Shown here: positions 4,153 to 23,109 of the stretch, one piece after another | How positions within the stretch are numbered: position 1 is the first letter of the stretch | Layout: every line of letters begins with the position of its first letter | Assembly (NCBI GenBank): GCA_905339155.1 | Contig: CAJPFJ010000004.1 | Span: 62,001 to 126,000, forward strand | Length of the DNA: 64,000 nt | Reading direction: 5' to 3' | DNA from: Methanosarcinales archaeon | GTDB lineage: Archaea > Halobacteriota > Methanosarcinia > Methanosarcinales > Methanoperedenaceae | The notes under the pieces: generated by a model | The model's database searches: none | The model's input: the letters and a program-made list of their open reading frames with translations, nothing else | What the model was told of the DNA's origin: nothing | Made by a program: the position numbers and the translations under genes

Positions 4153-4244
4153 CTTTTAACCCACCTCATGTTAATTTATCATTAATATACCATAAATATA
4201 TGGTGCGCCTGGAGGCCGGCACACCATTATTACTCTGTGGGATG

Positions 4245-6122: not shown

Positions 6123-6254
6123 AATTCTCCTCCTATGTCTTTAATGTCCTGTCCTGTATAAATGTGTTATTCCCAGTTCTATTTTTATTATATTTTTCAA
6201 CCATTCTTATTACCTCTTTCCGTATTGTTTAAGGCCAGTATCCTAACAATACTC

Positions 6255-6270
6255 TATAATATATAAATTT
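6255..6270 (-). promoter_or_regulatory. cooS: TATA-like element upstream of cooS
   Basis: Read on the minus strand the sequence AATTTATATATTATAG resembles an archaeal TATA box. It lies about 135 bp before the cooS start codon, implying a leader of roughly 100 nt. Assignment is by inspection only. Confidence 0.3.
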
Positions 6271-6401
6271 AATGACTATAAGATATAAGAAATAAGTTAA
6301 ATTAACATATAATGTATAACATACGATGATAGAATTTATGGCAGATTTCTGGATAAAAGATTATTTCTAGGATTGAGAACAATTTTAATGTGTGAATCCT
6401 T

Positions 6402-6713
6402 ATGTCTCTACCCATAATTCTAAAAGAACATATTGAATATAGCCCGGACTCAGTTGTCAGCAAGACCCTGAAACAGAATCCGGCAGGCACAATAACATTA
6501 TTTGCTTTTGATGCAGGACAGGGGTTAAGCGAGCATTCTGCGCCATTTGATGCCGTGGTCCAGGTTATTGAAGGAGAAGGACATTTTATCATCGGGGGAA
6601 AATATCACGATTTGAAAGAAGGACAGTTGATAATAATGCCAGCAAATGTGCCGCATGCTGTAAAAGCCGGGCAGAAGTTCAAAATGCTGCTCGTAATGTT
6701 GAAGTCCTCTTAA
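6402..6713 (+). CDS. small cupin-domain protein
   Basis: A 103-residue single-domain cupin. The core is visible as GQGLSEHSAPFDAVVQVIEGEG followed by the second motif region MPANVPHAVKAG, with His residues in positions normally used for metal binding. Small cupins of this type bind a metal and often a small ligand, or serve as sensor or isomerase modules; no specific reaction can be assigned. It is monocistronic, divergent from cooS, with AT-rich TATA-like sequence at about 6297-6320. Confidence 0.85.
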   Translation: MSLPIILKEHIEYSPDSVVSKTLKQNPAGTITLFAFDAGQGLSEHSAPFDAVVQVIEGEGHFIIGGKYHDLKEGQLIIMPANVPHAVKAGQKFKMLLVMLKSS

Positions 6714-6884: not shown

Positions 6885-7760
6885 ATGAATAATAAAATAA
6901 AATTATCACTTATGAGTGTGGGATTCGCTGCGATTCTTTTATTGGCGCAAACCAATTCAGCGCTGGCCGCGACTGCGCCGCCACTGGGCCAGGCAACAAG
7001 TTTCGGGGTCCTGGGGGCCTCGGCGGTAACCAATACCGGTCCGACCGTCATCATCGGAGATCTTGGTATCTGGCCAAACAATGCGGATTCGATCACTGGC
7101 TTTCCGCCGGGGAGCTACACCGCGCTGCACGCAGCGGATGCGGTAGCGCCTGGGGCTCAGAATGATGCCACCACCGCGTACAATACACTGGCAGGCCAGG
7201 CTTACGATGTCGACTTGACTGGCCAGGACCTGGGCGGACTAACGTTAATTCCAGGTGTCTATCGTTTTTCGTCGTCGGCTCAGTTGACCGGGACACTCAC
7301 TCTCGACGCCCAGGGCGACTCCAATGCGGCGTGGGTATTCCAGATGGGGAGCACCCTCACGACCGCAAGCGGCTCGTCTGTGATCGTAAACAATAGCGGC
7401 TCACCATGCAACGTATTTTGGCAGGTCGGCAGCTCCGCAACTCTGGGTACAACCACTGCGCTCAAAGGAACTATTATCGCACTCGAAAGCATCACAATTA
7501 ATAATGGCGTCACTCTAAAAGGGAGAGCTCTGGCGCGAAATGGTGCGGTGACCTTGATTAACGACAACATCGACACGACCGGGTGCACCGGTCCAACTCC
7601 AACATCAACAACTCCAACATCAACATCACCAACTCCAACACCAACATCACCAACACCAACTCTAACACCGCCATCTCCAGTACCGGAAATGAGTACTATA
7701 GTCTTGATGGGAACAGGAATAGTTGGACTGTTATTGATAGCTGTAAGAAATAGAAGATAA
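6885..7760 (+). CDS. DUF3494 ice-binding-like surface protein with C-terminal sorting signal
   Basis: A 291-residue protein. A signal peptide (about residues 1-28) precedes a DUF3494/ice-binding-like beta-solenoid domain (about 33-228) recognisable by LGQATSFGVLGASAVTNTG, IGDLGIWP, TLIPGVYRF and AWVFQMGSTLTT. A Thr/Pro-rich linker (about 229-262) leads to a C-terminal tag beginning VPEMS, then a hydrophobic helix and a basic end, similar to PEF/PEP-CTERM sorting signals. It is exported and probably anchored or shed. In this family the domain can bind ice, but many members act as adhesins. The body is visibly richer in G+C than its neighbours, which suggests acquisition by transfer. The start follows an AAGGAG site. 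Confidence 0.88.
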   Translation: MNNKIKLSLMSVGFAAILLLAQTNSALAATAPPLGQATSFGVLGASAVTNTGPTVIIGDLGIWPNNADSITGFPPGSYTALHAADAVAPGAQNDATTAYNTLAGQAYDVDLTGQDLGGLTLIPGVYRFSSSAQLTGTLTLDAQGDSNAAWVFQMGSTLTTASGSSVIVNNSGSPCNVFWQVGSSATLGTTTALKGTIIALESITINNGVTLKGRALARNGAVTLINDNIDTTGCTGPTPTSTTPTSTSPTPTPTSPTPTLTPPSPVPEMSTIVLMGTGIVGLLLIAVRNRR

Positions 7761-7940: not shown

Positions 7941-8522
7941 ATGCACTGGCGAGAAAAAGAATTGCTTAACATACTGAAAACTGGAAAAATGACAACTACC
8001 GAGATAGTCGCCAGGGTAAATATGAGCAAGGCAACAGCCCTGAAGTACCTGGATGGAATGAAAGAACAAAACCTGGTTGATAGCGAAGAGATAGGCACTG
8101 CAAAAATCTGGTTCTTAAAAAATGAAGAAGAAATAGTTGAAAAGAAAATCAAAATACTAATTGCGGATGATGATAAAAATGTTGTTAACATTATCCGATA
8201 TTCTATAGATGATCAATACGAGATTTTAGAAGCTGCAAATGGAAAAGAAGCTCTGGGGATGGTCTTTGCCAGATCTCCTGACATCCTGGTCCTGGATATC
8301 ATGATGCCTGAAATGGATGGCTACATGGTCTGCAAAGAATTAAAAGAACATGATTCCACAAAGGATTTGCCAATAATAATTTTGTCTGCCAAGGGCAGTG
8401 TAGATGATAAGCTCAAAGCAATAGGTTTTGGGATAGATGATTATATGGTAAAACCCTTTGACCCGAGGGAATTAGAGGCAAGAATAAAAATGAGGTTAAA
8501 ACGGACTCACGATATGGATTAA
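7941..8522 (+). CDS. response regulator with N-terminal HTH domain
   Basis: A 193-residue protein. Residues 1-60 form a winged-helix/HTH domain (KMTTTEIVARVNMSKATALK). Residues about 70-190 form a receiver domain with the acidic pocket DDD, phospho-acceptor Asp119 in LVLDIMMPEMDG, and the conserved Lys in MVKPFDP. The order HTH-receiver is the reverse of most bacterial regulators and is common in archaea. It is the first of three plus-strand signalling genes, 10 bp ahead of the CheB-CheR-PAS gene, so it is a likely target or partner of the kinases nearby. Confidence 0.88.
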   Translation: MHWREKELLNILKTGKMTTTEIVARVNMSKATALKYLDGMKEQNLVDSEEIGTAKIWFLKNEEEIVEKKIKILIADDDKNVVNIIRYSIDDQYEILEAANGKEALGMVFARSPDILVLDIMMPEMDGYMVCKELKEHDSTKDLPIIILSAKGSVDDKLKAIGFGIDDYMVKPFDPRELEARIKMRLKRTHDMD

Positions 8523-8532
8523 CCTGGTTATT

Positions 8533-11469
8533 GTGATCATGACCAAAAAACAAGAACAATCCAAAATAGGCAAGAATTCCGGGACCGGGAAATCTCACAA
8601 TTTGGATGATAACATCCCTGTCGTAGGTATAGGCGCCTCTGCGGGTGGGCTTGAGGCTTTAGGGAAATTTTTTTCCAATATGCCTTCTGACAGCGGAATG
8701 GCTTTTGTTATTATCATGCACTTTGATCCAGCTTCTAAAAGCCTCATGGCTGAAATATTGAAGAGATATACAAAGATGGAAGTATTCCAGGTGGAAGAAT
8801 GTATGAAGGTTGAGCCAAACCATGTCTATATCATACCGCCCAATAAAGATATGGCAATACTTCGTGGAATACTTCATTTACTGGAATCTGTGTTGCGCCA
8901 GGGGATAAGGCATCCTATCGATTTCTTTTTCCGGTCCCTGGCCGATGACAAAAGAGAAAAAGCTATCTGTATAATCCTGTCAGGAACCGGAACTGAAGGA
9001 ACTCTGGGCTTAAAAGCTGTCAAGGGTGAGAACGGTATGATCATGGTCCAGGATGTAAAATCGGCCGCTTATGACGGTATGCCAGTAAGCGCCATAGCCA
9101 CCGGACTTGTGGACTATATTCTGCCTCCTGAGAAAATGCCGCAGCAGCTTCTTAAATATGTAAAACAATTTTCCATTCAAGTCGCAAGAAAACCCGATAA
9201 CGCAACCAACTTCACTAATTCACAACAAAAAATAATCATCCTGATAAGAGACCAGACAGGACATGATTTTTCCCATTACAAGCAAAGTACGATCGTCCGA
9301 AGAATTGAAACGCGGATGAACATCCACCAGATTGACAATATATCTGATTATGTCCGTTATCTGCGTGAAAACCCCCATGAATTAGAAACGCTCTACAAAG
9401 ATCTTTTGATCGGGGTCACCAATTTTTTCAGAGACCTGCAGGCCTTTGAAGTACTCAAAAAAGAAATATCCGACCTGTTTAAAAATAAGAATGCTGTGCG
9501 GGTCTGGGTTCCAGCCTGTTCCACGGGTGAAGAGGCTTATTCTATCGCCATGGTCTGCAAGGAGTATATGGATGAGACAAAAAATGATCTCAAAGTCCAG
9601 GTCTTTGCCACAGATGTGGATAAGACCGCCATTGAAATTGCCCGGGCAGGTGTTTATCCAGATAGTATTGCTGCTGATGTAACCCATGAACGCTTACAGC
9701 GTTTTTTTACAAAAAATCCTGATACCTGCGTGATCAAAAAGGAAATCAGGGAAATGGTAATATTTTCTCCTCAAAATATCATCAAAGATCCACCTTTTTC
9801 CAGGCTGGATATGGTCAGTTGCAGGAATCTGTTGATCTATCTTGGCCCTGAGTTGCAGAAAAAACTATTGCGCCTTTTCCATTATTCCTTAAACCAGGAC
9901 GGGATTCTTTTTCTGGGTAATTCCGAAACTATAGGTGAACTTACAGACCTGTTTTCCGTTCTGGATAGAAAAGGGAAAATCTTTAAACGCAAGGGATTGG
10001 CAGCTTTACCATTGATGGGGGATTTTATCCATATTGCTCCACGTGAAATCAATGAAATAAAAGAAACATTTGACCCAAAACCCAGAGGCATCGGCGAACT
10101 TACTGAAAAGATACTGCTTGAGAGCTATGTCCCTTCATGTGTTATAATAAATGAAAAAGGGGACATTCTCTATATTCATGGTAAAACCGGAAAATACCTG
10201 GAACCAGCCCCGGGAAGAGCCAGTTTTAATATCTTAGAAATGGCGCGCGAAGGCCTGAAACTTGAATTGAACGCAGCCATTCGTAAAGTCATCACCCGGA
10301 AAAAGGACATTGTCTTTAAGGATTTGTATGTAAAGACCAATGGAGATGTCCAAAAAGTTAACCTGGTCGTCAAACCTATTGTAAAACCTGAGGCCATGAA
10401 GGGACTTATAATGGTCATTTTTGAGGATGTCCGGTCTCTTGAACCTTCAAGGCCAGCCAAAAAAACCCATACTTCAAAACATATTAATGAACATGTGTCT
10501 GAACTGGAACAGGAATTGAAATCCACAAAAGAAAATCTTCAAGCAACCATAGAAGAATTTGAAACCTCCAACGAAGAACTCAAATCATCAAACGAGGAAA
10601 TTCAGTCTTCAAACGAGGAATTGCAAAGCGCCAATGAAGAACTGGAAGCCTCAAAGGAGGAGCTGCAATCCATCAATGAGGAACTGATGACTCTTAATGC
10701 TGAACATCAGGTCAAGATAGAGGAGTTCTCAAGGGTCATTAACGATATGAACAACTTGCTTGCCAGCACAGAAATTGCAACGATCTTTCTTGATAATGAC
10801 CTTCATATCAAAGGTTTTACCCCTGCTGTCACCAAAATAATCAATCTTATTAAAACAGATATTGGGCGCCCGATAAGTGACATAGTGTCCAATCTGGAAT
10901 ATGAAAATATGGTCAAAGATGTTAAGATCGTACTCGACACACTGGTTTTCCAGGAAAAAGAAATTAAGAATTTAAAAAATCTCTGGTATTTAATGCGGAT
11001 TTTGCCCTATCGAACTATAGAGAATATTATCGATGGCGCAGTCATTACATTCATTGATATTACCCGGAGAAAACGGATGGAGCAAATGGAACGAGATGCC
11101 CGGATATATGCTGACGGCGTAGTGGATACGGTGCGCGAATCGCTTATAATATTGGACAAAGACCTCAGGGTATTATCGGCGAACCGGTCTTTCTATAAGA
11201 CTTTCCAGGTTTCCAGAGAAGATACCGAAAACAAATTCATATACGAAATAGGCAACCATCAATGGGATATTCCAAAGTTGCGAGAGTTTCTGGAGGAGAT
11301 CATACTCAGGGACTCGGTTTTCAATGATTTCGAGGTTGATTACGAGTTCCTGCGCCTCGGCTACAAGAGAATGATGCTCAATGCCCGCCGGATATATCAG
11401 GAGGGGAAAGGCAAAGAGATGATACTTCTTGCCATTGAAGACATCACGCAGCGAGCAGGGAAAGGGTGA
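8533..11469 (+). CDS. CheB-CheR-PAS hybrid signalling protein
   Basis: A 978-residue fusion. Residues about 28-210 are a CheB methylesterase domain with nucleophile Ser36 in GASAGG, candidate His in MHFDP, and SGTGTEG where the family usually has Asp in place of the Glu. Residues about 225-500 are a CheR methyltransferase (MVSCRNLLIYL, VWVPACSTGEEAYSIAM for SAM binding). A long Glu-rich coiled coil of repeated SNEEL-type heptads follows (about 655-735), then two PAS modules. Such hybrids sense small ligands and may modify Glu residues on partners. No chemoreceptor gene is in the window. The listed start is GTG; an ATG two codons later at 8539 is equally possible. Confidence 0.9.
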   Translation: MIMTKKQEQSKIGKNSGTGKSHNLDDNIPVVGIGASAGGLEALGKFFSNMPSDSGMAFVIIMHFDPASKSLMAEILKRYTKMEVFQVEECMKVEPNHVYIIPPNKDMAILRGILHLLESVLRQGIRHPIDFFFRSLADDKREKAICIILSGTGTEGTLGLKAVKGENGMIMVQDVKSAAYDGMPVSAIATGLVDYILPPEKMPQQLLKYVKQFSIQVARKPDNATNFTNSQQKIIILIRDQTGHDFSHYKQSTIVRRIETRMNIHQIDNISDYVRYLRENPHELETLYKDLLIGVTNFFRDLQAFEVLKKEISDLFKNKNAVRVWVPACSTGEEAYSIAMVCKEYMDETKNDLKVQVFATDVDKTAIEIARAGVYPDSIAADVTHERLQRFFTKNPDTCVIKKEIREMVIFSPQNIIKDPPFSRLDMVSCRNLLIYLGPELQKKLLRLFHYSLNQDGILFLGNSETIGELTDLFSVLDRKGKIFKRKGLAALPLMGDFIHIAPREINEIKETFDPKPRGIGELTEKILLESYVPSCVIINEKGDILYIHGKTGKYLEPAPGRASFNILEMAREGLKLELNAAIRKVITRKKDIVFKDLYVKTNGDVQKVNLVVKPIVKPEAMKGLIMVIFEDVRSLEPSRPAKKTHTSKHINEHVSELEQELKSTKENLQATIEEFETSNEELKSSNEEIQSSNEELQSANEELEASKEELQSINEELMTLNAEHQVKIEEFSRVINDMNNLLASTEIATIFLDNDLHIKGFTPAVTKIINLIKTDIGRPISDIVSNLEYENMVKDVKIVLDTLVFQEKEIKNLKNLWYLMRILPYRTIENIIDGAVITFIDITRRKRMEQMERDARIYADGVVDTVRESLIILDKDLRVLSANRSFYKTFQVSREDTENKFIYEIGNHQWDIPKLREFLEEIILRDSVFNDFEVDYEFLRLGYKRMMLNARRIYQEGKGKEMILLAIEDITQRAGKG

Positions 11470-11493: not shown

Positions 11494-13170
11494 GTGAAAG
11501 GAGAAAAAACTTATTCCGAAAAAATATCTGACCTGAGAAAACGGGCAGAGGATGCTCTGCAGGGAAAACGTGAGGATATTTCCGGACTATCTATTACGGA
11601 TGCCCGGAGTTTGATCCATGAACTTCAGGTTCACCAGATCGAACTGGAAATGCAAAACGAAGAACTTCAAAGGGCTCAGAGGGAACTCGAAGAGTCGCGA
11701 AACAGATATTCTGATCTGTATGATTTTGCCCCCGTTGGTTATTTTACTTTTGATAAAAATGGGCTTATCATAGAAGTCAATCTCACAGCAGCAAATAAAT
11801 TGGGTGTGGAAAGAAGCTTTTTGATCAAGAAACCATTTTCGCTTTTTATTTCCCCGGGCAGTAAGGATGTGTTTTATCTGTACTTGCGGCATGTTTTCAG
11901 GACCAATCTCAAACAGGCCTGCGAACTCAAACTTGTGGATAAGAAGGGAGTTTCGTTCGATATACAATTAGAAAGCATACCAGTCCAGGATGGAGAGGGG
12001 AATTCCAGCTATTGTCGGGCAGTCATGAGCGATATTACAGAACTTAAGAGGACCGGGGAAGCCATTCAGGACGCTCTTGCATATGCCGAGAGCATCATAG
12101 ATACAATACAAGAACCACTTGTGATCCTTGATTCATATCAGAAAGTGAAAAAGGTGAATCATGCTTTTTATAAAACGTTCAAGATCCCGATAGAAGATAC
12201 TAAGGACAGATCGTTATATGAATTAGGGAACGGCCTGTGGAATATTCCCAGGCTGAAAGAATTACTTGAGGAAATTATTTCCAGGAAAAACCAGTTCAAG
12301 GATTTTGAAGTTGAGCAGGATTTTCCTGATATAGGGAAAAAGGTGATGTCGCTCAATGCCTGCCGACTTGATCGAGCGGGCGCCGATATGATCCTCCTCG
12401 CGATGGAGGATATCACAGAGCGCAAAAAATTGATAGAACTGGGTCTTGAGAATGAGCGTCTCAGAAGTGCAAACAAAACCAGGTCAGAGTTTCTGACAAT
12501 CATGAGCCATGAACTGAGGACGCCTCTTACGGCAGTTATAGGATATTCAATAATCTTGCGGGGGAATACCCAGGGTAAATTAAATCAGAAACAGAGCTTT
12601 TTTGTGGATAATATTCTTGCAAGCGGCAAACACCTGCTTGACCTCATCAACAATTTTCTGGACCTTGCTAAAATAGAAGCTGGAAAGCTGGAATTGGTTC
12701 TTGAGGAAATATTTGTTATTGAAATATTAAATGATATACTCAAGCTTTTCAAAGAGAATGCACAAGAACATAATTTAATCATTGAAAAAGAATTTGACCC
12801 GGAACTGAAGTCTATAAAGGCTGACAGGCGGGCGTTCAAGCAGATACTTTTCAACCTGATGGGCAACGCGATAAAATTCAGCAAGCAAGAAGGGGGGATT
12901 GTTACTGTGTCAGCAAAAAGAGAAGGCGACATGGTAAAAATATCAGTCTCTGATAAAGGCATTGGAATTAAGGAAGAAGAATTACGAAGACTCTTCCAGA
13001 AGTTTGAGCAGCTTGATTCGGGAACATCCAGAAAATACGAGGGTACAGGTCTTGGACTTGCGATTACCAAACAGCTTGTAGAGCTCCATGGTGGTAAGAT
13101 CACGGTTGAAAGCAAATACGGGCAAGGCAGCACTTTCACCTTCTCACTGCCTATCGATGAGAAAAAGTAG
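11494..13170 (+). CDS. PAS-PAS histidine kinase
   Basis: A 558-residue kinase with no membrane segments, so cytoplasmic. An N-terminal helical region ([20 protein letters not shown]) is followed by PAS domains at about 70-185 and 195-310. A HisKA domain has phospho-acceptor His339 in SHELRTPL, and a HATPase domain follows with NLMGNAIKF (N box), [12 protein letters not shown] (G1) and GTGLGL (G2). The second PAS is closely related to the C-terminal PAS of the CheB-CheR hybrid just upstream (both contain the YKTF and DFEV patterns), which suggests intra-operon duplication. The start is GTG at 11494, since the overlapping ATG hits a stop at once. Its 3' end overlaps the convergent receiver gene by 20 bp. 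Confidence 0.9.
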
Positions 13171-13573
13171 TATGCAGCACGGTACGAATTTTCGCTTTAA
13201 GTTCATTTAGATCAAATGGTTTTGTAATATAGTCATCTGCCCCTAATTCCAGGCCTGCGATTCTACCTGTCTCACCCATCCCTGTCAGCATAATAATCGG
13301 GATCGATCTGGTCAATGGATGTTTTTTGATCTTGTTACATATCTCATAACCGGTCACGTCCGGAAGCATGATGTCTAATAATATTAAATCAGGAGCTTCG
13401 CTGCACGCTTTTCGGATCGCTCCGTCACCAGTGTACGCTTCAATAACTTTGTAGTTATCTGATTCAAGGGACATCTTCAAGGCGCTGACTATACCTTTCT
13501 CATCATCCACAACCAGTATTTTGACCTGCATACCACGTTCACCTGTTGTTTTAGATATGTTCCATTTCATCAA
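13151..13573 (-). CDS. stand-alone receiver protein closing the Kai-Rsb operon
   Basis: A 140-residue protein that is essentially one receiver domain: [11 protein letters not shown], phospho-acceptor Asp in [14 protein letters not shown], conserved Thr in MLTGMG and Lys in ITKPFD. There is no output domain, so it acts by protein contact, as in CheY or Spo0F. It begins 4 bp after the upstream histidine kinase-receiver stop. An internal ATG at 13531 preceded by AGGTGA may be the real start, giving a typical 126-residue receiver. It is the last gene of the minus-strand operon and is a candidate phosphate acceptor for the kinases encoded there. Confidence 0.88.
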
Positions 13574-13577
13574 TATC

Positions 13578-15770
13578 TTATTCTGTACATATAACTTCGT
13601 GTAAGGTTTTTAGCAATCTGTGCGCAGTGTAAGGCTTTGATAAAAAAGCCTTCGCCTCTGTGCTTCCAAACTTTCCATGTGCATCTTTATCTGCTAATCC
13701 ACTAACAGCAATAACCTTAACCTCAGGGTTAATTTTATGAATCGCCCGGATGCTCGCATGACCATCCATGACCGGCATCATTATATCCATAAGGACAACT
13801 TTGATTTTATCCTTATTTTGAGCATACAATGCCACTGCCTGGGCACCGTCATTGGCCGTAAGCACTTTATACCCGTACTTTTCCAATGTCGAGGAGGTAA
13901 TTTCACGAATTGAGCCTTCATCTTCAGCAACCAGAATCAACTCTCCATGCCCGATAGACAATTCAAGCTGTTCTTCTTCTTTTTGTACTTCGGTTTTAAT
14001 CGCAGGCAAATATACACTGAATTTCGTTCCTTTTCCAACCTCACTATACACATCGATGAATCCGCCGTGGCTCTTCACAATTGCAAATGCTATTGAAAGA
14101 CCAAGTCCCGTGCCTTTGCCAAACTCCTTTGTCGTGAAAAACGGTTCAAAAATCCTGTCAAGTATCCTGGGGAGGATACCGGTTCCGGTATCCGAGACTG
14201 AAATGATAATGTAAGAACCAACTTTAGCTTCGGCATACTTGCGTTCATAATTTTCATCAATGAAAAAATTCGAAGCTGTGATGCTTAAGATACCACCATC
14301 CGGCATTGCATCGCGGGCATTCACGCACAGGTTCATCATAACCTGGTGTAGTTGTGTGGCATCTCCTGAGATGGCAAAAAGATCTTTCTGTATATTGGTT
14401 CGAATTTCGATATTTCTTGGAAATGTCTCTTCTGCGACCTTCCCGATTTCGGTGATAATATGCTTTGCCTGAAGAATATTGCGTTCACCCTCGACGCCCC
14501 GCGCAAAAGACAGGACTTGCTTTATCAGATCAGCTCCGCGCTGTGAGTTCTGCTCAAGAATAGTAAGCAATTTCTGGCTCTGTTCATCTTTGAATTTTTC
14601 TTTTAACAGTTGCAGAGATAGCATCATCGGCGTCAGCACATTGTTGAGATCATGCGCTATTCCACCTGCAAGTGTGCCTATGCTCTCCATCCGCTGCGCT
14701 CGTAATAGCTGCGACTCAAGTTTCTTATTCTCCGTAATGTCGCTGTTGATAATAAGTATCGATTTTGGCTTTCCTTCGTTATCTCGTACCAGAGTCCAGC
14801 GGCTTTCAACGATGACCTTTTTGCCGTCTTTCTTTACCTGATGCAATTCGCCTGTCCATTCTCCATTTTCAAGCACCCTCTTTTTGGTTTCACTGAGCTG
14901 GAATGAGTCTTTATATAGAAGCTCATCAGCATTTTTGCCTATGATTTCTTCCGCTGTCCAGCCATACAGGCGTTGTGCACCATTATTCCAGTAGATGAGA
15001 CGGTGTTCTAAATCCCGGACTGCAATGGTATCATGTGCTTTATCAAGAAGGGAGGCCTGTTCCCGTATTTTCTCCAGGGCTTTCTTACGTTCCGTGATGT
15101 CGCGGAGGATACATGTGAAAAATGTTCCTTCGCCTGTTTTCCAGATAGCGATGGATATCTCAACCGGGAACTCTGATCCATCTTTTCTTAAACCCTGGGA
15201 TTCATGCGTTTTTCCTTTATTCTTATATTCCCCTGTTGACCGCAAGCGCTCAAATTCCTTTATATGAATTTCTCTATATTGTTCAGGCATGAGGATGGTA
15301 ACAGGTCTTCCCATCAATTCCTTTTCAGAATAGCCGAAGATGGTTTGTGCGCCATTGTTCCATGAAATGATGTTTCCATCGCTGTCGCTTGAAATAATTG
15401 CATCATTTGCCGCCTGTACCACAGAGCGGAATTTCATCTCAGACTGTTCAAGCGTCCTGTTCATGTCGTGAAGCCTGGACATAGATTCCTGGAAACCGCG
15501 AAATGTCATTTCAAAGGGCGCGATGCTCTCTGCAAAGAACTGCGCTGCTTGCTTCAGGGTCTGATCTTGCAGAGTGTTGGGTAAAACCCTGACCAGCGCT
15601 TTCTGGTGAACCCCCGCGATATCCAATATACCCAGCCCGTCGACTATTGCTTTTCGCCCGAGCTCATACGCGCGCTCCAGAGCCGTTTCTCCCCCTCCCG
15701 CAAGATAGTCCACTAGCGTTGAAGCGTATTGTTTTTCTAATTCATCCAGCGTGTTTTTCTTTATTTGCAT
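13578..15770 (-). CDS. RsbU_N-PAS-PAS histidine kinase-receiver hybrid
   Basis: A 730-residue hybrid kinase. The first 90 residues (YLAGGGETALERAYELGRKA, GLGILDIAGVHQKAL) match the N-terminal domain of RsbU phosphatases, the part that binds RsbT. PAS domains follow at about 110-230 and 235-350. The kinase core has His373 in GGIAHDLNN and a HATPase domain with SDTGTGILPR. A C-terminal receiver has Asp662 in LMDIMMPVMDG. It overlaps the rsbX-like gene by 10 bp. The domain order suggests that RsbT released from the stressosome is read by this kinase instead of by an RsbU phosphatase. The kinase-receiver half is a near-duplicate of the 18066-20654 protein. Confidence 0.88.
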   Translation of the reverse strand: MQIKKNTLDELEKQYASTLVDYLAGGGETALERAYELGRKAIVDGLGILDIAGVHQKALVRVLPNTLQDQTLKQAAQFFAESIAPFEMTFRGFQESMSRLHDMNRTLEQSEMKFRSVVQAANDAIISSDSDGNIISWNNGAQTIFGYSEKELMGRPVTILMPEQYREIHIKEFERLRSTGEYKNKGKTHESQGLRKDGSEFPVEISIAIWKTGEGTFFTCILRDITERKKALEKIREQASLLDKAHDTIAVRDLEHRLIYWNNGAQRLYGWTAEEIIGKNADELLYKDSFQLSETKKRVLENGEWTGELHQVKKDGKKVIVESRWTLVRDNEGKPKSILIINSDITENKKLESQLLRAQRMESIGTLAGGIAHDLNNVLTPMMLSLQLLKEKFKDEQSQKLLTILEQNSQRGADLIKQVLSFARGVEGERNILQAKHIITEIGKVAEETFPRNIEIRTNIQKDLFAISGDATQLHQVMMNLCVNARDAMPDGGILSITASNFFIDENYERKYAEAKVGSYIIISVSDTGTGILPRILDRIFEPFFTTKEFGKGTGLGLSIAFAIVKSHGGFIDVYSEVGKGTKFSVYLPAIKTEVQKEEEQLELSIGHGELILVAEDEGSIREITSSTLEKYGYKVLTANDGAQAVALYAQNKDKIKVVLMDIMMPVMDGHASIRAIHKINPEVKVIAVSGLADKDAHGKFGSTEAKAFLSKPYTAHRLLKTLHEVICTE
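13611..15063. repeat. 1.45-kb direct repeat, copy 1 (kinase-receiver module)
   Basis: Nearly the same sequence recurs at 18129-19584, with an offset of 4518-4521 bp and a small net indel. It covers the receiver, ATPase, phospho-acceptor and adjacent PAS coding regions of the two hybrid kinases. Long exact blocks are visible, for instance around the receiver C-terminus. It reflects recent duplication or gene conversion inside the operon. Confidence 0.85.
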
Positions 15771-16372
15771 TTAGATCGTACGACCAGCACGAGTGCATCG
15801 TCCGTACCCCTGTTAAAATGTGCCATTATATAATCGGCAATTTTCTGCGGCATATCCTCGAGTTTAATCCCGCTATCAAAGTTACTGCGAATGCCGTCGG
15901 TGACGAAAATCAATGTATCTCCCTTTATAAAAGGGATTACGGATTCTTTTAGCGTCGGAAGTTGATAACCCAGTGTTCCACCGCGAAGCAGTAACCTCTC
16001 ATGTGAAATGACTGATTTTCCATTCCCTCTTGTCACCAGGCCTTCAATATTCCCCACCCCAAGCCAGGATATCATCTTATCATGAGAATTGAGCTTTGCA
16101 ATGCTCATCACTACCCCGCGCGTTCCCTTCAAGGCCTCATGGCAACGCCTGACCAGCATGATAACAGGCTCGTGAGTATAAGTATCCAGCGTGGTAATGG
16201 CGATCTTAGAAGCTGCTGCGGCTTCATAACCATGTCCCAACCCATCCACTACCGCAATGAGGATGCCATCCGGGATCGGCTTGATAATATAACTGTCTCC
16301 TGAGACCTCCTCTCCCCGTAACGGTATCCCCGCAAAACCCCATTCGATCAACTGTAACTGATCATCGCACAT
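15761..16372 (-). CDS. rsbX: RsbX-like PP2C/SpoIIE-type phosphatase
   Basis: A 203-residue PP2C-fold phosphatase with metal-binding motifs GEEVSGDSY and VVDGLGHG and a C-terminal LIFVTDGI segment with its Asp. It lacks sensory domains, and its size matches RsbX, the enzyme that resets stressosomes by dephosphorylating RsbR and RsbS. It overlaps rsbT by 11 bp and the following kinase gene by 10 bp. The R-S-T-X order is that of bacterial stressosome operons. The alternative, a short RsbU-type output phosphatase, is less likely because the RsbU_N domain is instead fused to the next gene. Confidence 0.85.
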   Translation of the reverse strand: MCDDQLQLIEWGFAGIPLRGEEVSGDSYIIKPIPDGILIAVVDGLGHGYEAAAASKIAITTLDTYTHEPVIMLVRRCHEALKGTRGVVMSIAKLNSHDKMISWLGVGNIEGLVTRGNGKSVISHERLLLRGGTLGYQLPTLKESVIPFIKGDTLIFVTDGIRSNFDSGIKLEDMPQKIADYIMAHFNRGTDDALVLVVRSKCK

Positions 16373-16775
16373 TTTTTTGCACCCATTTCTTCATCGTTAT
16401 TTTCGTTCCCTTCCCAACTTCGGAGACGATTTCAAACTCATCCATCAATCGCTTGGCTCCAGGAAGACCGAGCCCCAGGCTTTTCCCGGTAGAGTAGCCG
16501 TCCTGCATAGCCAGTTTAATATTGGGAATACCCGGTCCTCTGTCAGAGGCGATTACAGCAATGCCGCGTTTGTCTCCCTCCCGGACAATGTTCAGGCAGA
16601 GTTCGCCGCTCCTTGCATATTCCACGATGTTACGCACTACCTCGGAGATTGCAGTAGCGATAAGTGTGAGTTCGGTGTTTGAGAAACCCAGCGGCACAGC
16701 CATCTCCTTTCCCTTCTGGCGGGCAGTAACAATGTCAAATTCGGAATTGATTGGAATACACACTTCATTTTCCAA
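16362..16775 (-). CDS. rsbT: RsbT-like switch protein kinase
   Basis: A 137-residue GHKL-type Ser/Thr kinase. Visible are the N box AISEVVRNIVEYA, the G1 box SDRGPGIPNI, and GKSLGLGLPGAKRLMDEFEI, which is highly characteristic of RsbT. In the bacterial paradigm RsbT is held by the RsbR-RsbS stressosome, phosphorylates both on stimulus, and is then freed to activate a partner with an RsbU_N domain; such a domain is present two genes downstream. It overlaps rsbS by 11 bp and the phosphatase gene by 11 bp. Confidence 0.92.
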   Translation of the reverse strand: MENEVCIPINSEFDIVTARQKGKEMAVPLGFSNTELTLIATAISEVVRNIVEYARSGELCLNIVREGDKRGIAVIASDRGPGIPNIKLAMQDGYSTGKSLGLGLPGAKRLMDEFEIVSEVGKGTKITMKKWVQKNVR

Positions 16776-17142
16776 GCTTTTTATCTCCTTTTTTTATCCG
16801 ATTATCCAGAAGTGCCAGCCCCTCTTCCAGGTCAAGCGCGGTCTTTACACCCTCAAGCTTCAAGCCCAGCTGAACCATCGAAAACGCTACCTCAGGCTGT
16901 ATCCCGACTATGACGGTTTCTGCCCCGCGAAGCATTATCATGTGCGCCATGGAGCGCAGGGTACGGGTCGCGAACGAGTCCATCACATCCAGCACGGTGA
17001 CGTCTACGATGACCCCGCGTGAGCGGAACTCACTTACCCGCCTTACCAGATCGTCACGTAACTTGAGCAAATCGGCATCGCTAAGCTCTGACTGAATGGA
17101 TGCGATAATATATTCTCCCTGTTTGAGGATTGGGACAAGCAT
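16765..17142 (-). CDS. rsbS: RsbS-like stressosome STAS protein
   Basis: A 125-residue single STAS domain. VTVLDVMDSFATRTLR contains the expected phospho-acceptor Ser56, equivalent to Ser59 of Bacillus subtilis RsbS, and VIVGIQPEVAFSMVQLGL is a hallmark of RsbS. RsbS forms the structural core of the stressosome with RsbR. The gene starts 3 bp after the rsbR stop and overlaps rsbT by 11 bp, so stoichiometric co-expression is likely. Confidence 0.93.
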   Translation of the reverse strand: MLVPILKQGEYIIASIQSELSDADLLKLRDDLVRRVSEFRSRGVIVDVTVLDVMDSFATRTLRSMAHMIMLRGAETVIVGIQPEVAFSMVQLGLKLEGVKTALDLEEGLALLDNRIKKGDKKLGK

Positions 17143-17145
17143 TCC

Positions 17146-18069
17146 TTATTGCACCTTTTTTTCTTGATGATTCAGGCTGGTTTCGGGCTCTATTCTGATA
17201 GTCTTGTAGCCCAGCAGCTGGTCTGCTTCTTCTATGCCACCTTGCAGGTCGCCTACGGTGTTCATCTTTGCTATATCGACGCCAAGGGTTACGAGAGTCT
17301 GGGCGATCTCAGGTGATATACCAGTAACAACGACCGTTGCGCCCATGAGCTTCGATGCGTCAACCGTCTGCACAAGGTGTCCGGCGATCTTGGAATCCAC
17401 CGCAGGAACGCCTGTGATGTCCATAACCACGACCTTGGCACGTTTGGCCCGGATTGTACGCAGTAATTGTTCGGTTAATTGGCGGGCACGATGGGTGTCG
17501 ATGACTCCGATAATCGGCAGGATGAGCAATTGATCCCGAACCTGCAATACCGGAGTTGAGAGTTCCTTTATAGCCTCTTGCTGCTGGCTGACGATTTTTT
17601 CGCGCTCTTCGATGAAAGAGAGTGCAACGATGGAGAGAATCTTATTGGCGACAGGTTCGTAGATGTCCAATGCCGCAGACAACCCCTCCATATCCTGCTG
17701 ATATCTCTCAAACAGGCTGCGACCGTATACATCGCGAAGAGTGAGTAAGCCGCCTATGATTTGCTCGGTCGTCATCCCGCGCAGCACGCCGCGTTCTGCC
17801 ATGCGCGCTGCATAAGTCTGGGCGTCTTCATACTCTCCTGTTTCCAGACAGACGATAACAGTGTCATAAATCGTGATCGATTCGGTTTCGATTTCTTCCT
17901 GCGTCAGGCCGGCAAGCAATCCCTTGGCTGTCATGTGCTGCACCCACTGCTGCCGCAATATCTCCCGCTTTTCACGGAAATGTTCTACTAACTCCTGCCG
18001 CAGCGCGGCTTCTGATTCCGGTGTTGGTTGGCTAATTTTTTCCTTCTTCATAATCCTCCTTTTTTTCAT
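17146..18069 (-). CDS. rsbR: RsbR-like stressosome sensor/scaffold
   Basis: A 307-residue protein. The N-terminal helical part (about 20-155) resembles the RsbRD-type sensory domain, not a PAS or haem-globin. The STAS domain (about 170-285) carries VVVMDITGVPAVDS and VVVTGISPEIAQTLVTLG. The two RsbR phosphosites correspond to Ser226 (Thr171 in B. subtilis) and Thr249 (Thr205). It is predicted to co-assemble with RsbS. The first ATG overlaps the upstream kinase stop by 4 bp; an internal ATG at codon 7 also exists. With only one RsbR in the neighbourhood, the input ligand is unknown. Confidence 0.92.
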   Translation of the reverse strand: MKKRRIMKKEKISQPTPESEAALRQELVEHFREKREILRQQWVQHMTAKGLLAGLTQEEIETESITIYDTVIVCLETGEYEDAQTYAARMAERGVLRGMTTEQIIGGLLTLRDVYGRSLFERYQQDMEGLSAALDIYEPVANKILSIVALSFIEEREKIVSQQQEAIKELSTPVLQVRDQLLILPIIGVIDTHRARQLTEQLLRTIRAKRAKVVVMDITGVPAVDSKIAGHLVQTVDASKLMGATVVVTGISPEIAQTLVTLGVDIAKMNTVGDLQGGIEEADQLLGYKTIRIEPETSLNHQEKKVQ

Positions 18070-20654
18070 TGAAATCCTCCATGCATTAGATTATCGTTCT
18101 GCTTATGCAAGCAGATATTTATGGCTTTTAGCAATCTGTGCGCAGTGTAAGGCTTTGATAAAAAAGCCTTCGCCTGAGAACTTCCAAACTTTCCATGTGC
18201 ATCATTATCTGCTAATCCACTAACAGCAATAACCTTAACCTCAGGGTTAATTTTATGAATCGCCCGGATGCTCGCATGACCATCCATAACAGGCATCATT
18301 ATATCCATAAGAACAACTTTGATTCTATCTTTATTTTGAGCATACAATGCCACTGCCTGGGCACCGTCATTGGCCGTAAGCACTTTATACCCGTACTTTT
18401 CCAATGTCGAAGAGGTAATTTCACGAATTGAGTCTTCGTCTTCAGCAACCAGAATCAACTCTCCATGCCCAATAGACAATTCAAGCTGTTCTTCTTCTTT
18501 TTGTACTTCGGTTTTAATCGCAGGTAAATATACCGTGAATTTCGTTCCTTTTCCAACCTCACTATACACATTTATAAATCCGCCGTGGCCCTTTACAATT
18601 GCAAGTACTGTTGAAAGACCAAGTCCTGTGCCTTTGCCAAATTCTTTTGTGGTGAAAAATGGTTCAAAAATTCGTTCCAGCAGCCTGGGAGGGATACCTG
18701 TTCCAGTATCCGAAACTGAAATGAGAACGTAAGAGCCAGCTTTAGCTTCTGAATGCATACCTTCATAATTTTCATCAATAAAAAAATTCGAAGATGTTAC
18801 GCTTAAGATACCGCCATCCGGCATAGCATCGCGGGCATTCACGCACAGGTTCATTATAACCTGATACAACTGTGTAGCGTCTCCTGAGATGGTAAAGAGG
18901 TCTTTTTTCAGATCAGTTCTGAATTCGATATTTTTTGGAAATGTCTCTTTTGTGACCTTCTCAATTTCAGATATGATGTTATTTGCGAAAAGAGGATTGC
19001 GTTCACCTTCTATCCCTCGTGCAAAAGATAGAACCTGCTTTATTAAATTAGCTCCGCGCCAGGAGTTCTGCTCAAGAATAGTAAGCAATTTCTGACTTTG
19101 CTCATCTTTGAATTTTTCTTTTAATAGTTGAAGCGACAGCATCATCGGCGTCAGTACATTGTTGAGATCATGTGCTATACCGCCTGCAAGAGTGCCTATG
19201 CTCTCCATCCTCTGAGACCGCAGGAACTGCACCTCCAGCCTTTTCTTCTCCGTGATATCGGTATTGATGATAAGTATTGATTTCGGCCTCCCATTACTAT
19301 CCTGCACAAGGGTCCAGCGGCTCTCGACGATAATCTCGTTACCCTTTTTTGTCACCTGGTCCAGCTCGCCTATCCATTCCCCCTTCTCGATTACGGTTTT
19401 CTTGGCCTCGATCAGCTTCGATGATTCTTCTTTATACAGAAGCTCATCTGCATTCCTGCCCAAGACTTCCTCTGCCGTCCATCCATACATACGCTGTGCG
19501 CCCTTATTCCAGTAGATGAGGCGGTGTTCTAAATCCCGCACTGCAATAGTATCACGCGCTTTATCAAGAAGGGCAGCCTGCTCCCGGATCAGCTCCCCGG
19601 ATCTCATGCTCTTCGTGATATCTTTGGCGATAACTGAAAGGCCCAACCTAGAGGGATAGGCATTAATTTCAAAAGTGAAGATCTTCTCTCCAGCCCGATA
19701 TCTACTCACGAAATGACGAACTTGCTGTGTAAATAATACCTCTCTGTACAATCCTTCCGTTCTTGTGCCTTTTAGCTCGGGGAAAAGCTCAAATAGAGAT
19801 TTTCCAATAGCATCTTTAGCCAGGATTCCTGTAAGAGTTTCAGATGCATTATTCCAGTAGGTATATATTAGCTTCCTGTCCATGGCATAGAAGACCTCAC
19901 CGATGCTTTCAGCAAGTTCCCTGTATCTTTCTTCGCTTTCCATAGATGCTGTGGTGGCTTCTTGCAGTTGGGCTGTCCGTTCCAGAACACGCAGTTCTAA
20001 CTCATCGTGTGCTCTGGACAGCGCCTCTTCCGCTCGCTCGCGTTCCATGATTTCAGCATTCAATTCCTCGTTGGCAGTTACAAGTTCTGCTGTCCGCTCC
20101 TCTACCCTTATTTCTAATTCATCATGCGCCCTTCGTAGCTCCTCCTCCGCCCTCTTGCGCTCTGTCAGATCCACGGCAACAAGATTGATTAATGCCATCC
20201 CGTCCTGTTGCAGGGAATTGAGGGAGAGATACATCGGCACATGCGTCCCATCCCCTGCCACAAAGGATATTTCCCCAATGCTACTCTCCCCCCGATGCAA
20301 TAATTCCTCAAAGACGTCCCAATCGGCTGGCGAGATAAAGTGCGAAATGCTGGTGCCCATCAATTTTTCAAGCGGCGTCTTCATCATCCGGGCAAAACCG
20401 CTGTTGCAGTAAAGGATAGAATTATCGGCACCAAGAGTTACTGCCCCTTCCTCCATCCCCTCAATGAGAATACGGTAGGGATGCTCTGCCCCTTTCAATG
20501 TGAAAACCTGCTCGCCTTTTTCCCCTGAGAGAACAAAAGCGTCCACCTCGCCGCTCCTGATGGCGCGTAAAGTTTCTTCGGCTTCCGCTAATTGTGCACG
20601 AAGTTTTTCAACTTCAAGCGCAAGTTCCTCACGTGATCTATCTTTTTTCTGCAT
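18066..20654 (-). CDS. PAS-PAS-PAS histidine kinase-receiver hybrid
   Basis: An 862-residue cytoplasmic hybrid kinase. A coiled coil (about 1-55) precedes a PAS domain (about 60-170). Two repeated helical segments containing RRAHDELEIRVEERTAEL-type sequence follow (about 170-250), then PAS domains at about 255-355 and 360-475. The kinase core has His495 in GGIAHDLNN and a HATPase domain, followed by a receiver with Asp784 in LMDIMMPVMDG. It sits 7 bp after kaiB and overlaps rsbR by 4 bp, physically linking the Kai genes to the stressosome genes. By analogy with cyanobacterial SasA it could read the KaiB-KaiC state, but it lacks a KaiB-like sensor domain, so this is inference. Confidence 0.88.
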   Translation of the reverse strand: MQKKDRSREELALEVEKLRAQLAEAEETLRAIRSGEVDAFVLSGEKGEQVFTLKGAEHPYRILIEGMEEGAVTLGADNSILYCNSGFARMMKTPLEKLMGTSISHFISPADWDVFEELLHRGESSIGEISFVAGDGTHVPMYLSLNSLQQDGMALINLVAVDLTERKRAEEELRRAHDELEIRVEERTAELVTANEELNAEIMERERAEEALSRAHDELELRVLERTAQLQEATTASMESEERYRELAESIGEVFYAMDRKLIYTYWNNASETLTGILAKDAIGKSLFELFPELKGTRTEGLYREVLFTQQVRHFVSRYRAGEKIFTFEINAYPSRLGLSVIAKDITKSMRSGELIREQAALLDKARDTIAVRDLEHRLIYWNKGAQRMYGWTAEEVLGRNADELLYKEESSKLIEAKKTVIEKGEWIGELDQVTKKGNEIIVESRWTLVQDSNGRPKSILIINTDITEKKRLEVQFLRSQRMESIGTLAGGIAHDLNNVLTPMMLSLQLLKEKFKDEQSQKLLTILEQNSWRGANLIKQVLSFARGIEGERNPLFANNIISEIEKVTKETFPKNIEFRTDLKKDLFTISGDATQLYQVIMNLCVNARDAMPDGGILSVTSSNFFIDENYEGMHSEAKAGSYVLISVSDTGTGIPPRLLERIFEPFFTTKEFGKGTGLGLSTVLAIVKGHGGFINVYSEVGKGTKFTVYLPAIKTEVQKEEEQLELSIGHGELILVAEDEDSIREITSSTLEKYGYKVLTANDGAQAVALYAQNKDRIKVVLMDIMMPVMDGHASIRAIHKINPEVKVIAVSGLADNDAHGKFGSSQAKAFLSKPYTAHRLLKAINICLHKQNDNLMHGGFQ
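18129..19584. repeat. 1.45-kb direct repeat, copy 2 (kinase-receiver module)
   Basis: The partner of 13611-15063. The match begins at the receiver C-terminus (TAGCAATCTGTGCGCAGTGT in both) and fades near the PAS/PAS boundary after TTATCAAGAAGGG. Confidence 0.85.
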
Positions 20655-20661
20655 GACAATT

Positions 20662-20994
20662 TTACCTGGGCCGCAAGTCCAATCCTACAAGAATACGTTC
20701 TCTGTTAGACATATCACCGATAAGTTTGCGCAAAGGAAGAGGAAGTTTCTTTATTAGCGTGGGCGCTGCAATTATCTCGGCATCTTTAGCAAGCTCTGGC
20801 TGCTGATAGATATCGATAACTTCAAGTTCATAGCGGCCTTTGAGATTTTCCTCACATATTTTTTTGATGTTCACGATCGCCTGTGTAGACCTGGGTGTTA
20901 TCCCGGAAATGTACAAACGCAGGACATATGTCTGCGTTCCTCCCTTTTGGAGCGACTGTTCATACTCTTCTAAACCATCTTTTATTTCATTCAT
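20662..20994 (-). CDS. kaiB: KaiB-like protein, second copy
   Basis: A 110-residue thioredoxin-like KaiB: YVLRLYISGITPRSTQAI, then LEVIDIYQQPELAKDAEIIA, APTLIKKLPLPLRKLIGDMS and LVGLDLRP. These are the core KaiB elements, including the segment that changes fold when KaiB binds KaiC. A 20-residue extension precedes the fold. It lies 42 bp downstream of the first kaiB and 7 bp upstream of the hybrid kinase. It differs from the neighbour in many positions, so the duplication is not recent and the two could bind different KaiC rings or states. Confidence 0.93.
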   Translation of the reverse strand: MNEIKDGLEEYEQSLQKGGTQTYVLRLYISGITPRSTQAIVNIKKICEENLKGRYELEVIDIYQQPELAKDAEIIAAPTLIKKLPLPLRKLIGDMSNRERILVGLDLRPR

Positions 20995-21036: not shown

Positions 21037-21366
21037 TTACTCTTTGAGAGGGCGCAGATCAAGCCCAACAAGAACGCGCTCGGTGTTGGAGAGGTCTCCT
21101 ATTATTTTCTTTAAAGGCATAGGAAGGTTCCTCACGAGAGTAGGAATCGCAAGTATCTGATCGCCCCTGGCAAGCTGCGGATTTTTCAGCAGGTCGATCA
21201 CTTCGATCCTGTATTTTCCTGCAAGGTGTTCTTCACAGAGTTTCTTAAGATTGGCAAATGCTGTCATGGATTTGGGCGTCTGTCCTGCAACATAAAGCCT
21301 CAGTTCCCATGTATCCCCTTTCTGTATTTCGGATGTTTGCTGTCCTGTTTCTGTTATGTTTTTCAT
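21037..21366 (-). CDS. kaiB: KaiB-like protein, first copy
   Basis: A 109-residue KaiB with [60 protein letters not shown] and LVGLDLRPL. It follows kaiC by 24 bp on the same strand, so kaiC and both kaiB copies form a probable operon start. No kaiA is present, as usual outside cyanobacteria. A role as KaiC ring-binding switch partner is inferred from the family. Confidence 0.94.
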
Positions 21367-21390: not shown

Positions 21391-23103
21391 CTATGACCTG
21401 TTTGCATCTGACTTGCGAAGACGTTCCATTTCTGCACGTACTCGCGACAGGGTGGCCTCCTGCATTTCTTCTTGCCGGGTGAGTTTATTTACTTCTTCTT
21501 GCGCCGCTTCGAACTCAGAACGCAAAGCTGTAATCTGCATTTCCAGGGATTTGCTCTTGCGTTCAAGTCCGCGCTTCTTACGTTCGATCTCCTCAAGGCG
21601 CAAAGTTTCAGAAGATTTCTCCTGCGCTTCCTGTGCAGCCCGCGCAGAACCTGTCAGAACGCCTGCCGGACCAAGATACACATCAACCAGGTCTATTCCC
21701 TTATCGGTCAGCAGGAACTCGCGGATCTGGTTGGAATGCGCCATGCCCCGGGACTTTAATATGTACAGGCCGCGATTGTGCTCCCCCCCGATTTCAATAT
21801 CACGCAGCAGAAGCCATGTATCCATTAATGACGAAATGCCAAATTCTGTCTGTTCGGTAGTACCTCCATGCGACAGGTTTGTAAAGAAGGCTGTTATCTG
21901 GTTCGCTTTTAAGAAATCAATAAGACGCGATAGCATTGATTTGACCTCGGTATCACTGCCTATAGCGATTAAATTTGTAACCGGGTCGATGATAACGACT
22001 TTGGGTTTGAATTCCCTTACCATTTTGTACATCTTTACAAGATGCATTTCCAGGCCGTAAATCGTGGGGCGCACTGCGTAAATATCCAGAAGACCCTGTT
22101 TTATCCATGGCTCAAGGTCAATTCCGATTGAGCGCATATTGCGGGTAAGCTGGTCTGAGGATTCCTCAAATGCAAAATAGAGACATCGTTCGCCGCGTGA
22201 GCAGGCCGCGTTGGCAAAGCTGGCAGATATGCTGGTTTTTCCGGTCCCGGCAGTACCTGAGACAAGAACACTACTGCCGCAATAGTATCCCTCACCTCCA
22301 AGCATGGTATCAAGACGGGGGATGCCTGAGGATATCCGTTCAGTAGATACATCGTGCTGTAACCCAAGTGATGTGATTGGCAGCACTGACATGCCCTGTT
22401 CATCTATAAGGAACGGGTACTCATTTGTGCCGTGTGATGAGCCGCGATATTTGACGATGCGCAAACGCCGGGTGGAAATCTGCCCTTCCACCCTGTTGTC
22501 CAGAAGGATAACGCAATCAGAGACATATTCTTCCAGCCCGTGCCTTGTCAGTGTGCCTTCTCCTTTTTCTCCGGTAATAATCGCTGTAACGCCTTTTGCT
22601 TTCAGCCAGCGGAAAAGCCTTCTAAGTTCGGCGCGCAGAATACTTTCATTGGATAATCCGCCGAAGAGCGATTCTATGGTATCAAGCACTACGCGCTTAG
22701 CCCCGATCGAATCTATGGCATGATTGAGGCGGATGAACAGCCCTTCAAGGTCGTATTCACCGGTCTCTTCGATTTCACTTCTTTCGATGCGAACATAATC
22801 AAGGAACATCTTTTTGCGTGCTGCAAGGTCGTTCAGGTCAAACCCCAGAGATGCCACATTCTGAACCAATTCTTCGGAGGATTCCTCAAATGACATAAAG
22901 ACTCCGGGTTCGTTATATTGAACAGCCCCACGCACAAGAAATTCCATCGCTAACAATGTTTTACCGCACCCGGCAGTTCCGCATACCAGCGTCGGACGCC
23001 CTTTTGGTAATCCTCCATCTGTTATTTCATCCAGTCCCCGGATCCCTGTCTGGCATTTAGGCAGGCACTCCAGGGAATTTAGATTAATTTTTACTTCAGT
23101 CAT
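21391..23103 (-). CDS. kaiC: KaiC-like double-domain ATPase with C-terminal coiled coil
   Basis: A 570-residue KaiC with two RecA-type domains. Numbering is from the ATG at 23103, which has an AAGGAGC ribosome site 7 nt upstream; a TTG two codons earlier is also open. CI has Walker A GTAGCGKT (42-49) and paired Glu73-Glu74. CII has Walker A GTAGTGKT (283-290) and Glu313-Glu314. The autophosphorylation site region reads EFGISSLMDTW, giving Ser424-Ser425 where cyanobacterial KaiC has Ser-Thr. A charged coiled coil of about 80 residues (about 488-568) replaces the cyanobacterial tail. It is predicted to form a phosphorylatable hexamer that binds KaiB and signals to the kinases and stressosome encoded downstream. 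Confidence 0.94.
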   Translation of the reverse strand: MTEVKINLNSLECLPKCQTGIRGLDEITDGGLPKGRPTLVCGTAGCGKTLLAMEFLVRGAVQYNEPGVFMSFEESSEELVQNVASLGFDLNDLAARKKMFLDYVRIERSEIEETGEYDLEGLFIRLNHAIDSIGAKRVVLDTIESLFGGLSNESILRAELRRLFRWLKAKGVTAIITGEKGEGTLTRHGLEEYVSDCVILLDNRVEGQISTRRLRIVKYRGSSHGTNEYPFLIDEQGMSVLPITSLGLQHDVSTERISSGIPRLDTMLGGEGYYCGSSVLVSGTAGTGKTSISASFANAACSRGERCLYFAFEESSDQLTRNMRSIGIDLEPWIKQGLLDIYAVRPTIYGLEMHLVKMYKMVREFKPKVVIIDPVTNLIAIGSDTEVKSMLSRLIDFLKANQITAFFTNLSHGGTTEQTEFGISSLMDTWLLLRDIEIGGEHNRGLYILKSRGMAHSNQIREFLLTDKGIDLVDVYLGPAGVLTGSARAAQEAQEKSSETLRLEEIERKKRGLERKSKSLEMQITALRSEFEAAQEEVNKLTRQEEMQEATLSRVRAEMERLRKSDANRS

Positions 23104-23109
23104 TGGCAA

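Follow-up and report, generated by a model that had tools for sequence, protein, structure and literature searches.

Stressosome modules of the rsbRSTX type were described in diverse bacteria, and the archaeal ones were mentioned in passing (Heinz 2022, PMC9237108). In Bacillus subtilis, the contact of RsbT with the RsbU_N domain of RsbU and the linker mechanism that follows are activating (PMC12143880). The RsbU_N domain was also found on signalling proteins encoded downstream of such modules in some alpha-, beta- and gammaproteobacteria (PMC9237108), and RsbU_N histidine kinases were reported in stressosome operons, one of them being modelled and RsbT being proposed to order its linker helix (eLife 2025, PMC12143880). 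The idea of a partner switch that feeds a phosphorelay has therefore already been published for bacteria. In Moorella thermoacetica, MtG (RsbU_N-GAF-GGDEF) is a non-phosphatase RsbU_N output of an RsbT stressosome; its output domain is a diguanylate cyclase, whereas that of the protein studied here is a kinase (Quin 2012, as cited in PMC12143880). Vibrio vulnificus likewise has rsbRSTX followed by a two-component kinase (VvD1/VvD2), with VvD1 lacking RsbU_N (PMC9237108).

The circadian protein KaiA and RsbU_N share a fold, in which RsbT and KaiC bind equivalent sites, and no link was identified between RsbU and the proposed circadian clock of B. subtilis (Köbler 2024, PMC11372060). Within the open-access literature, to which our search was confined (subscription papers lay outside it), no report joining the stressosome and KaiC in a relevant way was found, nor any on KaiC in Methanoperedens.

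In this work, sequence and structure searches combined with genome comparison were applied to a stretch of 64,000 nucleotides (the window) from a methane-eating archaeon resembling Ca. Methanoperedens, which includes its closest named relatives. A run of minus-strand genes from 23109 to 13151 encodes, in this order, KaiC, two KaiB proteins, a hybrid kinase (HKa), RsbR, RsbS, RsbT, RsbX, a kinase with an N-terminal RsbU_N domain and a stand-alone receiver (Table 1).

Table 1. Coordinates of the Kai and stressosome features in the window
Feature	Position	Strand	Basis and remarks
kaiC with C-terminal coiled-coil extension	21391..23109	-	NCBIfam PRK09302, 770 bits; likely ATG 23103
kaiB, first copy	21037..21366	-	PF07689, 94.3 bits
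kaiB, second copy	20662..20994	-	PF07689, 91.5 bits
Kai-operon hybrid kinase HKa: PAS domains, HisKA (His495), HATPase, receiver (Asp784)	18066..20654	-	Pfam, motif residues
rsbR, N-terminal sensor half and STAS	17146..18069	-	PDB RsbR 7b0u, E 5e-33, residues 31-287
rsbS, single STAS domain	16765..17142	-	PDB RsbS 6qcm, E 1.5e-26
rsbT, switch protein serine kinase (HATPase_c_2)	16362..16775	-	PF13581, 42.8 bits
rsbX, single-domain PP2C/SpoIIE feedback phosphatase	15761..16372	-	PF07228, 50.9 bits
Probable stressosome output kinase: RsbU_N, linker helix, PAS, PAS, HisKA, HATPase_c, receiver	13578..15770	-	Pfam, motif residues, AlphaFold2
RsbU_N and linker (residues 1-112), predicted RsbT-binding dimer domain	15435..15770	-	PF08673, PDB RsbU matches, KaiA-type fold
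Stand-alone receiver (Asp67)	13151..13573	-	PF00072, 102 bits; likely ATG 13531
Receiver protein with N-terminal HTH-like region	7941..8522	+	PF00072 only; HTH by eye only

The open reading frame of the RsbU_N kinase starts with ATG and encodes 730 amino acids. A sequence-only reading of the locus had likened its N-terminus to the RsbT-binding domain of RsbU, and this resemblance is borne out by profile searches. With the full protein, Pfam places RsbU_N (PF08673; curated cut-off 25.5 bits) on residues 13-88, covering profile positions 1-74 of 75 (35.4 bits, E 1.2e-8), and residues 1-103 searched alone reach 39.7 bits (E 5.5e-10). Structures of B. subtilis RsbU in the PDB are reached from the kinase even by plain phmmer (E 0.003-0.012), at about 25% identity to RsbU over 80 residues. 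A chance match is rejected in view of the two Pfam searches, the PDB matches and the homologues found across the order. The remainder of the protein comprises two PAS domains (about 114-227 and 242-349), HisKA (365-425), HATPase_c (469-590) and Response_reg (612-723), all above their Pfam cut-offs, with intact motifs around His373 (GGIAHDLNN) and Asp662 (LMDIMMP), so that the histidine, the ATPase domain and the receiver aspartate of a hybrid histidine kinase are all present. No PP2C/SpoIIE domain (PF07228) was detected in it by Pfam, and the identity of a canonical RsbU phosphatase is thus rejected; the domain replacement read earlier from the letters was correct in each of its parts. This is the single RsbU_N protein of the genome. 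Like RsbU of B. subtilis, it adjoins an RST module, but PAS-PAS-HK-REC stands in place of PP2C and the operon is without sigma-B, RsbV and RsbW. With the proteobacterial RsbU_N kinases it shares the N-terminal position of the domain, the location directly downstream of rsbRSTX and the proposed switching by RsbT (PMC9237108, PMC12143880), whereas it differs from them in being archaeal, in its two PAS domains and C-terminal receiver, and in its place inside a Kai operon.

The full RSTX set lies directly upstream of this kinase, and the gene ends overlap or nearly so (rsbS-rsbT and rsbT-rsbX by 11 bases each, rsbX and the kinase gene by 10 bases). RsbX is matched best by PDB 3zt9 (E 1e-16), which we take to be a Moorella protein, followed by RsbX 3w40 (E 2e-15). 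RsbT is 47% identical to B. subtilis RsbT; the numbering of the reference sequence, which also served for the interface lookup below, agrees with that of the paper naming the residues. One RsbT is encoded genome-wide, the remaining HATPase_c_2 matches sitting in large open frames, and no second RsbT-like small kinase was found in the genome. Compared with the solved RsbS and RsbR structures, RsbS keeps the serine of DSF, and RsbR keeps IDT and has a serine (VDS) at the second site; the DSF serine, the IDT threonine and the second threonine or serine are the phospho-acceptor sites. Judged by gene content and adjacency, this is a complete RSTX module, whose assembly into a megadalton stressosome core is predicted.

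The residues of the RsbT-RsbU_N interface were taken from B. subtilis RsbU (E24, L27, Y28, I74, I78) and RsbT (R19, R23, N24, D92). In the kinase, E24 and L27 are the same, and the other three positions read Y28E, I74A and I78A; in RsbT, R19 and D92 are the same and the substitutions are R23K and N24E, with the N box and the D78 equivalent of the kinase motifs preserved. The E/A/A pattern is common to related Methanoperedens kinases, several other archaeal families retain Y28, or a similar residue, and hydrophobic residues, and the pairing of RsbT with RsbU_N residues across loci is not strict. Binding of RsbT to the RsbU_N domain of the kinase is plausible.

The architecture is not an invention of one genome, a possibility rejected by the occurrence of RsbU_N in 41 of 200 related genomes (9 of 34 genera). 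A class-wide search again gave 41 genomes, and among 394 genomes drawn across the phylum the domain was found in 24. RsbT lies within 1 kb of the RsbU_N gene at 38 of the 45 loci examined, and the 37 RsbU_N proteins scanned include 31 with HisKA and 30 with HATPase_c, while SpoIIE/PP2C occurs in none. Outside the class, rsbT is found directly beside a RsbU_N protein ending in a kinase core at five of seven further loci, these cores being called by eye and from weak matches to the kinase of the window. Given the adjacency of RsbT, the frequency of HisKA and the lack of PP2C, the stressosomes of the archaea sampled ordinarily have a histidine kinase as their candidate output. The same counts fit the route from partner switch to phosphorelay that was proposed in the sequence-only reading; the rewiring itself is not new, being published for Proteobacteria and usual in this archaeal order. 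What is new is that a kinase is the usual output candidate in the sampled archaea and that, in the genome of the window, the module is merged with a Kai operon.

Several variations on these loci were seen among the relatives. RsbU_N kinases at L038 and L039 (genomes G024 and G014) adjoin two RsbR-like genes, with no RsbT or RsbS nearby. A tandem RsbT-like pair occurs at stressosome loci of other families of the order (L025, L028, L050, L053, L059, L068 and others), and a frame of 328 amino acids in G008 (L060, 7458-8444) matches both RsbT and RsbX, possibly as a natural fusion. At L070, positions 4097-6451 encode a relative of the stress kinase that lacks RsbU_N and begins with the linker; a Kai-type receiver gene comes directly after it, and neither stressosome nor kai genes were seen on this 13.8 kb contig. 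This shortened relative suggests that the RsbU_N domain can be lost. In two other genera, KaiC-like ATPases that are only weakly similar to the KaiC of the window are encoded upstream of stressosome genes (L061, 1640-3145; L041, 2309-3115).

The Kai-operon setting and the Kai-kinase-like C-terminal half of the kinase were absent from the sequence-only reading. KaiC carries ISS at its phosphosites (residues 425-427), and its best PDB match is 8dba/8fwi (675 bits), which we take to be the KaiA-independent KaiC of Rhodobacter; other KaiC entries, presumably from S. elongatus, score 355 bits. The system therefore resembles the Rhodobacter-type KaiBC hourglass in its best KaiC match and in the coiled-coil extension, but differs from it in having two KaiB copies, the only ones in the genome, and in sharing its gene run with a stressosome. 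At the Kai loci of three relatives (L162, L164 and L165 in G017, G020 and G021), kaiC-kaiB1-kaiB2-HK-REC precedes a convergent kinase gene, after which a receiver protein is encoded. All of these genes recur in the window in an unchanged order: the convergent kinase is 71-73% identical, and the receiver protein at 7941-8522 (89-92% identical to its counterparts) is kept beside the operon, where it may possibly act as a DNA-binding output. The stand-alone receiver is 86-87% identical to the Kai-operon receivers of these relatives, in alignments starting at residue 15, and is on this evidence the orthologue of the REC encoded directly after the Kai kinase. The convergent PAS-PAS histidine kinase (11494-13170, plus strand), conserved at the Kai loci of the three relatives, is accompanied in the window by a CheB-CheR-PAS fusion of 978 amino acids (8533-11469, plus strand), also convergent to the operon, to which no full-length match was found at those three loci. 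Elsewhere in the window are an ice-binding-like PF11999 protein (6885-7760, plus strand), apparently secreted and with a C-terminal membrane anchor, and a multihaem cytochrome beside a CO dehydrogenase (Prismane/CODH) gene (2878-4152 and 4245-6122, minus strand).

The difference specific to the window is the presence of rsbRSTX and the RsbU_N kinase (13578-18069) between the HK and REC genes. The Kai loci of G017, G020 and G021 are without these genes, and the three genomes have their own RSTX modules on other contigs. In relatives with both kaiB and RsbU_N the two are on different contigs, except in G014, where they are about 12 kb apart on one contig, and a conserved linkage of Kai and stressosome genes is thus rejected. 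No kinase of the HKa family was found upstream of rsbR in eight relatives, and among the sampled genomes a Kai/stressosome junction occurs in that of the window only. Comparison of the gene orders shows the stress module as inserted between the kinase and receiver genes of a kaiC-kaiB-kaiB-HK-REC operon.

Both kinases of the run are chimeric. HKa is a paralogue of the RsbU_N kinase: the two proteins show little resemblance before about residue 223 of the latter and 59-100% identity beyond it, and within residues 584-703 the identity is 97% in protein and 87-93% at third codon positions. Their receivers, 97% identical in protein, form a clade (support 0.996) whose neighbours in the receiver tree are the Kai-kinase receivers of G017, G020 and G021 (joint support 0.959), whereas the receivers of other RsbU_N kinases are just 52-74% identical. 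Compared block by block, the RsbU_N kinase has a PAS2 that is 57-87% identical to other stress kinases and 10-39% to Kai kinases. For its blocks 434-463 and 494-730 the closer similarity is mostly to Kai kinases, and HKa bears a stress-type PAS2. The 3' end of the RsbU_N kinase gene and the gap to REC also match Kai kinase 3' ends and the HK-REC gap. Exchange of the kinase core is less clear than that of the receiver, since the tree of residues 240-580 places neither kinase of the window firmly. This pattern agrees with a reciprocal exchange or a gene conversion that accompanied insertion by homologous recombination; the precise event is our inference. The two chimeric kinases make recombinational domain exchange directly visible.

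Taken with the distribution of the family, the RsbU_N match and the full RSTX set indicate that the RsbU_N protein probably serves an archaeal stressosome as its output kinase, switched by RsbT. By homology, a core of RsbR and RsbS would hold RsbT; upon stress, RsbT would phosphorylate the STAS proteins and depart, and RsbX would reset them. Free RsbT would then engage the dimeric RsbU_N domain and, through the helical linker, alter the pairing of the kinase dimer as in the model for B. subtilis RsbU, with phosphate passing from His373 to Asp662 and onward via a phosphorelay. The most likely consequence of the insertion would be one phosphorelay output common to the stressosome and the Kai module, namely the stand-alone receiver (13151-13531), to which the receiver protein at 7941-8522 may perhaps be added. 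Against an RsbT switch count the changes at Y28, I74 and I78 of the RsbU_N interface; in addition, the PAS pair could bring its own signals and mainly govern the kinase, and in V. vulnificus, whose downstream kinase is without RsbU_N, no interaction of that kinase with RsbT was detected (PMC9237108).

Such a shared output in this genome is a tentative reading, short of an even chance. Its fuller form, in which a KaiBC timer and a stressosome stand in one operon and their kinases, sharing a receiver type, feed one phosphorelay, is a little more doubtful. The merger might instead be a passive by-product of recombination, Kai and stressosome signalling staying separate and having only the transcript in common, which is compatible with switching of the kinase by RsbT. 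The exchange follows the homology of the kinases, Methanoperedens has many hybrid kinases of this family, and the junction is absent from the other sampled genomes, all of which agree with a passive origin; the near-identity of the two receivers, on the other hand, points to a common partner, and neighbouring genes overlap or abut along the whole run. We regard a purely passive merger as possible but on the unlikely side.

The direction of the switch was considered as well, as RsbT could bind RsbU_N and act on the protein mainly as a kinase or as an inhibitor, phosphorylating it or keeping it off, so that stress would lower the phosphorelay. The kinase motifs kept in RsbT would suit such a role, and RsbT-dependent phosphorylation of downstream kinases without RsbU_N was proposed previously (Heinz 2022, PMC9237108), but a transient contact between kinase and substrate would not require RsbU_N, and the B. 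subtilis contact and linker mechanism are activating. Such a mode of action is accordingly judged improbable.

It is still less probable that the assembly joined two loci artificially through repeated kinase 3' ends. Near the 3' ends, the two kinase genes do have 281 bases in common at 96%, the source is a metagenome-assembled genome with 5.4% estimated contamination, and the junction is known from one genome only; the longest exact repeat, however, is just 83 bases, and HKa and rsbR are joined by a 4-base ATGA overlap. This first join has no explanatory repeat, since rsbR of the examined relatives has no such kinase upstream.

An AlphaFold2 single-sequence model of residues 1-112 is an all-helical bundle (mean pLDDT 80). 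In Foldseek, the natural folds that match it best are C-terminal domains of KaiA (5jwr; TM 0.54-0.59, probability up to 0.99). There were no matches at E<=0.001, and RsbU structures were absent among the best 50 listed; the KaiA-type matches back the fold of the modelled RsbU_N region only weakly. The likeness to the C-terminal domain of KaiA lies in the four-helix bundle and in the RsbT site of RsbU_N, which is equivalent to the KaiC site, whereas the domain of the window matches RsbU_N only (the sole Pfam match of residues 1-103 at E<=10, with no KaiA family match), and its partners in relatives are rsbT, not kai genes. A KaiA-like role is unlikely, since the KaiC of the window resembles 8dba/8fwi, taken as the KaiA-independent Rhodobacter type, and the extreme form of the fusion reading, in which RsbU_N also touches KaiC in this KaiA-less system, is very improbable.

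The usual candidate for the stressosome output in the sampled archaea is a histidine kinase, and a partner switch would there feed phosphorelays without a sigma factor. The locus described here is a natural case of a KaiBC module joined to an RsbT/RsbU_N module and, if the shared phosphorelay is real, the fused operon would integrate timing and stress at the level of the histidine kinase.
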